Source: Gammaproteobacteria bacterium Ga0077554 | GTDB lineage: Bacteria; Pseudomonadota; Gammaproteobacteria; Ga0077554; Ga007554 | Length of the DNA stretch: 42,733 nucleotides | Direction: 5' to 3' | Assembly (NCBI GenBank): GCA_001464585.1 | Contig: LNFF01000001.1 | Location: 1-42,733, forward strand | Shown here: one piece after another, positions 33,563 through 34,982 of the stretch | How the letters are laid out: each line of letters begins with the position of its first letter | How positions within the stretch are numbered: position 1 is the first letter of the stretch | Made by a program: the position numbers and the translations under genes | Notes under the pieces: model-generated | Database searches by the model: none | Seen by the model: the letters and a program-made list of their open reading frames with translations, nothing else | Told to the model about the DNA's origin: nothing

Positions 33563-33635
33563 TCTTTTTATAGTAACAGATAATGCATAGTTCTTGGGCT
33601 ATGAAATTGTTTGGTTTATATTTTTGGAGGTTGCT

Positions 33636-34025
33636 TTGAATAAGGATATGAAAATACTCATAGTGGATGATTTCTCTACTATGAGACGTATTATCAAGAA
33701 TTTAATGCGCGATCTGGGATTTAATAATACCAGCGAAGCGGACGATGGAAAAACTGCCTTGCCTATTTTGCAGGCGGGTGACTTTGATTTTCTGATTACC
33801 GACTGGAATATGCCGGGGATGACGGGATTAGATCTTATAAAGGCCGTGAGAGCTGATCCCAGGTTGTCAAAAATACCCGTACTTATGGTAACCGCAGAAG
33901 CAAAACGTGAGCAGATAGTGGAAGCAGCCCAGGCGGGCGTAAATGGTTATGTAGTAAAACCATTTACTGCGGCAACATTAAAAGAAAAAATTGATAAAAT
34001 TTTTGAACGTCTCGAAACAAAATAA
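33636..34025 (+). CDS. cheY: Chemotaxis response regulator CheY
   Basis: Single-domain receiver, 130 aa, which after phosphorylation by CheA binds FliM. The acidic pocket is D11 and D12, the phosphoacceptor D56 is in [11 protein letters not shown], the switch Thr is in [12 protein letters not shown] and the invariant Lys is in [11 protein letters not shown]. The start is a TTG at 33636, because GGAGG ends five bases before it; an internal ATG lies at 33648. It follows fliA by 73 nt. A MITE-like element separates it from cheZ. Confidence 0.97.
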
Positions 34026-34032
34026 ATTAGAT

Positions 34033-34210
34033 GAGGTTCTGTTGACATTCTGGATCGTCGCGAGGGTGCGTAGGGTCAACTACTGCAAAGTGCACGGACT
34101 GGAGGATGACGCAGGCGTACTTGCGGTACGTTAAGGAGTCCGTAAGGAGTACGCTTTGCAGTAGTTGACCCTACACAGCCGCAATAGATTCAGAACGTCA
34201 ACAGAACCTC
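34033..34210. mobile_element. MITE-like inverted-repeat element between cheY and cheZ
   Basis: 178 bp with terminal inverted repeats GAGGTTCTGTTGACATTCTG (34033-34052) and its complement at 34191-34210 (19 of 20 match). A second perfect 20-bp pair lies inside, starting TAGGGTCAACTACTGC at 34071-34090 and complementary at 34154-34173. No coding capacity and no clear target-site duplication. The termini suggest a non-autonomous relative of a DDE transposon; the parent family is not identified. It sits 8 bp after the cheY stop and 16 bp before the cheZ start. Confidence 0.82.
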
Positions 34211-34226
34211 AATTACAGGAAGAACA

Positions 34227-34982
34227 ATGAGTGAGCCGAGAGAAATGAGTGAAGAAAAAAAATATTACCTTACTCAGGCGCGCGCTCTTGTGGAAAATAT
34301 TGAACAGGGAAACGATAGTGAAGTGAATTCCCTGATTGAGAGTATTTCAAAATTTCACGAGTCCACACTTTTCCAGGAAGTAGGAAAGCTGACCAGGCAA
34401 TTGCATGAAACATTAAATAATTTTCATGTTGATTCACGTGTAGAAGCTTTGACAAAAAATGAAATACCTGACGCTAAGGAACGGCTTAATTATGTGATTA
34501 AAATGACTGAAGATTCCGCCAATAGAACACTTAACGCTGTAGAAAATGGACTCCCTATTGCTGAAGAATTAAAAGAGAAATCGAATGTACTTAACAAAAA
34601 ATGGCGGCGGTTTCGCCAACGCGAAATGCCTGTCGAAGAGTTCCGTGAGTTAAGTAATGAGATTGATAATTATTTAAGTTGGTCGGTTATCCAATCCGAA
34701 AAAGTGCGTGAAAATTTCTCTCATATTCTTATGGCTCAGGATTTCCAGGATCTAACCGGACAAGTGATAAGGCGTGTTATTAATCTCGTACAGGAAATGG
34801 AAGGTAATCTGATAGATCTGGTTAGGATTTCTGGCCAGCGCATGAAGAAAGAGCCTCTGGAAGAGAATAATGGATCTGATTCGAAAGCTGATGGACCACG
34901 TATCCCTGGGTGTGACAGCCATAAAGACCGGCTTTCCAGTCAGGATGATGTTGATGAACTTCTTTCAAGTCTGGGTTTTTGA
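34227..34982 (+). CDS. cheZ: CheY-P phosphatase CheZ
   Basis: Speeds dephosphorylation of CheY-P. At 251 aa it is a long helical hairpin: LTRQLHETLNNFHVDSRV and RLNYVIKMTEDSANRTLNAVE precede the catalytic AQDFQDLTGQVIRRV (about residues 170-184), which supplies the active-site Gln. A variable acidic linker leads to the C-terminal CheY-binding peptide DDVDELLSSLGF. The ribosome-binding site (AGGAAGAAC) is immediately outside the right end of the MITE-like element, which left it intact. Confidence 0.96.
   Translation: MSEPREMSEEKKYYLTQARALVENIEQGNDSEVNSLIESISKFHESTLFQEVGKLTRQLHETLNNFHVDSRVEALTKNEIPDAKERLNYVIKMTEDSANRTLNAVENGLPIAEELKEKSNVLNKKWRRFRQREMPVEEFRELSNEIDNYLSWSVIQSEKVRENFSHILMAQDFQDLTGQVIRRVINLVQEMEGNLIDLVRISGQRMKKEPLEENNGSDSKADGPRIPGCDSHKDRLSSQDDVDELLSSLGF

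Follow-up and report, generated by a model that had tools for sequence, protein, structure and literature searches.

In bacteria, MITEs are usually taken to be what deletion has left of a single insertion sequence. The terminal repeats of IS5-family MITEs closely resemble the ends of a coding element of that family. Among non-coding repeats compared here by description, the Correia repeat enclosed elements, or NEMIS, described in Neisseria, are small, with terminal repeats and TA ends, and lie beside or between genes; they are transcribed into long hairpins, and RNase III cuts transcripts bearing Correia elements (PMC10969869, PMC2229807); the literature searches turned up no report of a core that they have in common with other terminal repeats. 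QMITE1 and QMITE2 of Coxiella burnetii, also compared by description, are gammaproteobacterial MITEs that give rise to small RNAs; QMITE2 is about 190 bp long and its short forms are REP-like, and one core with several kinds of termini is not described in the cited passages (PMC5896051). The GTAG- and CGTC-tagged REPs are palindromic repeats with conserved unpaired tags, those of the GTAG type occurring mostly in Gammaproteobacteria according to the passages cited (PMC3733652).

The element considered here is like each of these in part. Its sister copies show the TA duplication of IS5-family MITEs but, unlike them, it has an interior that is not a piece of the insertion sequence and that is common to elements with other termini. 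It differs also from the tagged REPs, which as described are 20-40 bp, without DDE-type terminal repeats and with the tags placed differently (PMC3733652).

The hairpin between cheY and cheZ

The window, the whole stretch of 42,733 nucleotides that was analysed, includes a flagellar-chemotaxis operon in which a hairpin stem at 34032-34211 separates cheY, whose product is a CheY-type receiver (Pfam Response_reg, 7e-31), from cheZ, whose product matches Pfam CheZ (7.8e-73). The element starts 6 nt downstream of the cheY stop codon (TAA, 34023-34025) and ends 15 nt upstream of the cheZ ATG (34227), within 1-2 nt of the 8 bp and 16 bp given in the original prediction, whose coordinates agree to the same margin. 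The predicted RNA fold of 34026-34226 has an energy of -109 kcal/mol, against a mean of -54.4 for 200 dinucleotide shuffles (z -12.87), none of which was as stable (0/200); the hairpin is thus borne out, and its RNA is predicted to be highly structured, as foreseen. The near-perfect outer repeats and perfect inner pair claimed for it were likewise recovered: the outer repeats are identical at 20 of 21 positions and extend imperfectly to 25 nt at 92%, and the inner pair, perfect over 21 bp, is part of a 32-nt arm pair with 88% identity.

The nested hairpin is made of two parts of different origin, a terminal shell of about 21 bp and a 138-nt module, and what the original prediction chiefly missed is that the inner hairpin stands on its own as a conserved module, present also in elements with other termini. 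The features of the locus are as follows.

33594-34025, plus strand: cheY, as the longest frame from TTG; the true start is probably further in
34032-34211, plus strand: whole element, an extended hairpin of outer repeats and inner module
34032-34052, plus strand: left terminal inverted repeat, shell type D, TGAGGTTCTGTTGACATTCTG; the same ends are found on copies C8 and C22, and resemble those of an 824-bp IS5-family element
34053-34190, plus strand: conserved structured module, 138 nt, common to elements with other termini
34056-34064, plus strand: left near-invariant motif CGTCGCGAG
34070-34090, plus strand: left arm of the perfect 21-bp inner stem
34114-34132, plus strand: central hairpin GGCGTACTTGCGGTACGTT, the most conserved inner part
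34154-34174, plus strand: right arm of the perfect 21-bp inner stem
34180-34187, plus strand: right motif CGCAATAG, one base off the family motif CGCAGTAG
34191-34211, minus strand: right terminal inverted repeat, 20/21 identical to the left
34217-34222, plus strand: AGGAAG, putative cheZ ribosome-binding site, unpaired in the predicted fold
34227-34982, plus strand: cheZ

With terminal inverted repeats, a length below 400 bp and no coding capacity (no ORF of at least 80 aa lies inside it), the element has the build of a MITE. No promoter- or terminator-like site was found in 33900-34300, and the element lacks the arrangement of an intrinsic terminator, a G+C-rich hairpin followed by a T run. 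Against Rfam, the window stretch gave no family match at E up to 1, and seven module loci gave none at gathering score.

Copies, the empty site and a possible IS5-type partner

A search of the element's own genome (G000) for further copies, proposed with the original prediction, found two more full ones, at C8:115952-116127 (94%) and C22:146210-146386 (92%). Among same-family relatives, a 75% copy is found in G004 and a shortened one, of 103 nt, in G001. In the congener G002, cheZ follows cheY after about 34 nt with no hairpin between them. Copies at unrelated loci and absence from the orthologous site in a relative are marks of a MITE; together with the terminal repeats, the lack of coding capacity and a plausible autonomous partner, they uphold the MITE-like mobile element that had been proposed, while the alternative then offered, a regulatory RNA structure fixed at this locus, finds no support, since a same-genus relative has cheY-cheZ without the insertion. 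The exact terminus pattern occurred in only two records, taken as G004 and G001, among genome contigs of 84,980 species, a set from which own-genome records may be left out. In viral contigs neither this pattern nor two core patterns had a match, and BLASTN of the element, or of a G247 copy, against plasmids and phages gave none.

Copies C8, C22 and G004 have TA on both flanks, in YTAR contexts. The window copy is flanked instead by TGA/TCA and shows no target-site duplication, a feature that old copies need not have; these flanks would be accounted for by two mutually pairing substitutions. The missing TA duplication nevertheless leaves the insertion footprint short of clean, and counts against the explanation favoured below.

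The proposed search for an autonomous parent gave a candidate. Genome G006 has four 824-bp elements whose ends start with AGGTTCTGTTGACGTTTC, each with a TA duplication at YTAR and one transposase frame that belongs to the IS5 family (NCBIfam NF033580, 5.3e-81), and ends of this element are also present at own-genome contig edges C33 and C18. The hairpin element has only its outermost bases, about 15, in common with that insertion sequence and is therefore no straightforward deletion derivative of it, the insertion sequence being a plausible, not proven, partner. Truncated IS5-type transposase starts lie beside intact ends of the same kind in the own genome, from C36:22069 to the contig end and at C32:209986, and are remnants of the presumed partner. 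Two other candidates for the parent were set aside: an IS5-like gene on own-genome contig C5, from a PF13340 family search, where matching ends were not seen, and contig C20, which on reading had no parent present.

A module within several kinds of terminal repeats

A class-wide search of 369 sampled genomes with the whole element matched one genome outside its own, G290, and by the core only. There the core is enclosed by ends CTAGCCCGCATTTCTCACA, of which 151 are present at up to 2 mismatches. These approximately 151 ends are of IS1380 type, and the MITEs of that genome (L150-L192) fall into size classes of 62, 90, 165, 183, 283, 319 and 373 bp, many of them without the module.

A covariance model, R1, built from seven interiors with the plus-strand structure, matched in 21 of the 369 class genomes at E <= 0.01 and in 19 at E <= 7e-11, the own genome included; only 8 candidates per genome were scored, and per-genome counts are therefore lower bounds. 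A second model, R2, built from 60 copies, matched five of 398 phylum genomes at E <= 0.001, namely the own genome and four listed as sharing the phylum only (best E from 4e-10 to 3e-5). Five more own-genome copies were found with R2, in another kind of ends, TTATCCTAAAAACGGCGATTGG, at C15:42745-42885, C40:103848-103988, C9:48431-48571, C39:7104-7244 and C32:48818-49009, all antisense to both neighbour frames by simple ORF calls. As a control on specificity, the G290 MITEs L156, L161, L163, L164 and L185-L187, along with L121, L122 and L033, were unmatched by R2 at 1e-5. A match in G119 (L213, E 1.5e-4), in which the motifs described below are absent, was taken as false; one in G332 (L212, E 4.8e-6) has the motifs and no clear shell.

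Other small elements were seen in passing. L121 (G006:C7:299830-300096) and L122 (G007:C35:24605-24870) are MITEs of about 266 bp with ends AGGCTCTGTTGACGTTT, whose inner GTACTT..GTACATAAGCGA hairpin resembles the module centre, though R2 does not match them. Some modules or MITEs have an extra insert (L273 on G000 C32; L182, L184 and L186 in G290), about 50 nt long in L273 and L182. The sequence CACATGGATGTGC.AGTGTC, or one much like it, occurs in each of L273, L184 and L186, which lie in genomes of different families, and may be a smaller mobile unit.

The terminal repeats were sorted in 71 copies aligned to R2, a census in which 13 further rows matched the sorting expression at one end only and L265 was labelled by hand. 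The module was found within at least five kinds, listed here, and two copies (L263, L266) were given no type.

Shell A, CTAGCCCG[CG]ATTTCTCACC: 44/71 copies
Shell B, AACCTAAATAAATCAGTTG: 9/71 copies
Shell C, GCC.G.AT.ATTCATGAA and kin: 6/71 copies
Shell E, the own-genome type, TTATCCTAAAAACGGCGATTGG: 5/71 copies
Shell D, the window type: 4/71 copies
Shell F, CTAGGAGGCTGTCCGAGAATAGA: 1/71 copies

Shells A and C, which start similarly, may be kin, as may B and E. Full-length partners were found for two of them: for shell A a 1754-bp element in G290 with an IS1380 transposase (NF033539, 1.2e-117), and for shell B a 1689-bp element in G165 whose 516-aa IS1380-like transposase falls below the NCBIfam cut-off. 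Two shells coexist in single genomes, D and E in the own genome and A and B in G357; G165 has shell B plus a motif-found shell A hairpin (L294). In a module tree of few columns, with bootstrap not settled, copies with D, E and B each form one group, A needs 7 changes and C needs 4; taken over all shell labels the tree requires 10 changes, where shuffling gives a mean of 26.2, and the starred branches by themselves force few shell changes.

Strand-specific folding and its explanations

Pairing was assessed in two sets drawn from 66 plus-strand R1 matches, one of 60 copies (without L210, L212, L226, L232, L243 and L259) and one of 59 (without L212, L226, L232, L243 and L259, which are truncated, disrupted or weak, and the near copies L233 and L234). 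RNAalifold on a MAFFT alignment of the 59 copies gave only 20 pairs; replaced stems cannot be aligned by MAFFT, and an alignment fitted to the model was therefore used. In the latter, with 60 copies, 91.4% of paired cells were complementary, against 33.7-42.3% with partners slid by 1-3 columns, and the covariation score was 0.672 against 0.220 for shuffles; a model-fitted alignment leans towards its own structure, though the slid controls are far off. Two-sided changes were found in 39 of 42 pairs, stem sequences being replaced wholesale with pairing kept, and the module thus shows the compensatory changes expected of structured RNA.

Matched changes of this kind on both arms, in long perfect inner stems, are also what would be expected of an ordinary MITE with a passive interior, whose palindrome is maintained solely through repair between its two arms, by template switching or gene conversion. 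Template switching needs no selection to homogenise a palindrome, and the paired change that would have given the window copy its TGA/TCA flanks fits such repair. Repair would, however, erase mismatched motifs, yet the module has two that are near-fixed and not complementary: CGTAGCGAG or CGTCGCGAG on the left in 54 of the 71 copies, and CGCAGTAG on the right in 49. Repair is moreover blind to strand, but RNA folding energies favour the plus strand of the module in 58 of 59 copies, the mean difference being -14.9 kcal/mol, and the same holds for 19 of 20 genome means. Single mismatches in structures predicted without G-U pairs comprise 102 G-T against 41 A-C, and departures from Watson-Crick pairing within genomes 41 G-T against 19 A-C (binomial p 0.006). 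In light of these asymmetries a passive interior seems unlikely.

The strand difference is small in a shell-only control (-1.9 kcal/mol; 35/57 copies) and weaker in the variable stem alone (mean -5.8 kcal/mol; 46/59 copies), for which four genome means run in the opposite direction (type-D copies of the window genome +1.1, G004 +5.1, G270 +1.4, G179 +0.5). R1, having been built with a plus-strand structure, could be biased towards copies with a good fold on that strand. The same strand is favoured in all ten further copies that R2 found, and in eight of eight motif-selected hairpins in terminus-fetched loci, six of them already among the model matches. We read these results to mean that the fold of one strand, be it RNA or single-stranded DNA, is under selection; part of the asymmetry can be put down to common ancestry and to bias of the model.

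A strand-specific fold would also suit a substrate of a single-strand transposase or recombinase (HUH or RAYT-like) that recognises it, the shells being its landing palindromes. The module adjoins very different palindromic ends, and the GTAG and CGTC at its boundaries recall the REP family tags, as these are described in the passages cited (PMC3733652). The order of the tags is nevertheless not the head-to-head or tail-to-tail order of REP dimers, and no copy with clear boundaries was found outside a shell, the doubtful L212 and L266 excepted; we regard this explanation as distinctly improbable.

Of all these readings we favour a composite MITE, in which IS5-type outer repeats of about 21 bp enclose a structured 138-nt module that is found in many Gammaproteobacteria within other ends, and which was probably moved in trans. 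An IS5-type transposase would have brought it into the cheY-cheZ gap, recently enough that the congener is without the insertion, and selection on the one-strand fold, as RNA or folded single-stranded DNA, would keep the module, its fold serving the spread or upkeep of the element itself. The window copy may be degenerate, given the changed base in its right motif.

The genomic neighbourhood agrees with such a role. By simple ORF calls of at least 90 aa, 13 of the 71 copies are sense to both neighbours and 17 antisense to both, 13 lie between convergent and 5 between divergent frames, 15 are inside a called frame and 8 have no frame on one side; this lack of orientation preference argues against a general role as a cis-acting mRNA element, and the fold probably serves the element. 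A module-to-frame distance of 19 nt recurs because the terminus often provides the stop codon of the neighbouring frame; insertion may favour gene ends. That the hairpin is a cis-regulatory RNA structure selected here to set the CheY:CheZ ratio, as its sense orientation, intergenic position, very stable predicted RNA fold and the translational coupling studied between cheY and cheZ of E. coli (PMC2716512, in the passages cited) might suggest, is highly improbable, since the congener is empty at the site, the same element lies at unrelated loci and its overall orientation is unbiased.

The composite element may still have an effect at this locus. The module is sense to the operon, and the cheY-cheZ mRNA would thus bear a hairpin of great stability between the two genes. 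The stop-to-start spacing, 201 nt as against about 34 in the congener, would loosen translational coupling of cheY and cheZ, and the mRNA hairpin may be cut by a double-strand RNase, transcription not being terminated. By analogy with coupling in E. coli and with RNase III cutting of Correia transcripts, looser coupling or a cut between the genes would be the likeliest local effect. The change in CheY:CheZ ratio put forward in the original prediction, through processing or partial termination, is plausible from the predicted fold, termination being the weaker route in that no terminator-like site is present. E. coli chemotaxis is described, in the passages cited, as tolerating joint overexpression of cheY and cheZ better than that of either alone (PMC2716512).

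A literature search with the terminus sequences found no paper, and a herpesvirus paper that matched motif strings was taken as a chance hit. In the open-licence literature, text searches on MITEs that have interiors in common, differ in their termini or form structured RNA turned up no description of the module, which is weak evidence of novelty.

What makes this element informative is its interior, a conserved fold specific to one strand and found repeatedly within transposon ends that look unrelated. A wider reading, which we offer more tentatively, as one that may well not hold, is that the module, whether as RNA or as folded single-stranded DNA, is a structured nucleic acid that is mobile and belongs to no single transposon: it would have been repackaged in ends from at least two families of transposase (IS5; IS1380 and IS1380-like) and have spread through many gammaproteobacterial genera, with two packagings coexisting in one genome, that of the window included. 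A testable consequence of the conserved fold is that mutations in the two fixed motifs should have an effect on the element irrespective of the ends that enclose it. Should the fold function as RNA or single-stranded DNA, the module would be a parasite of several transposases, and this would offer a reason why such non-coding elements persist.
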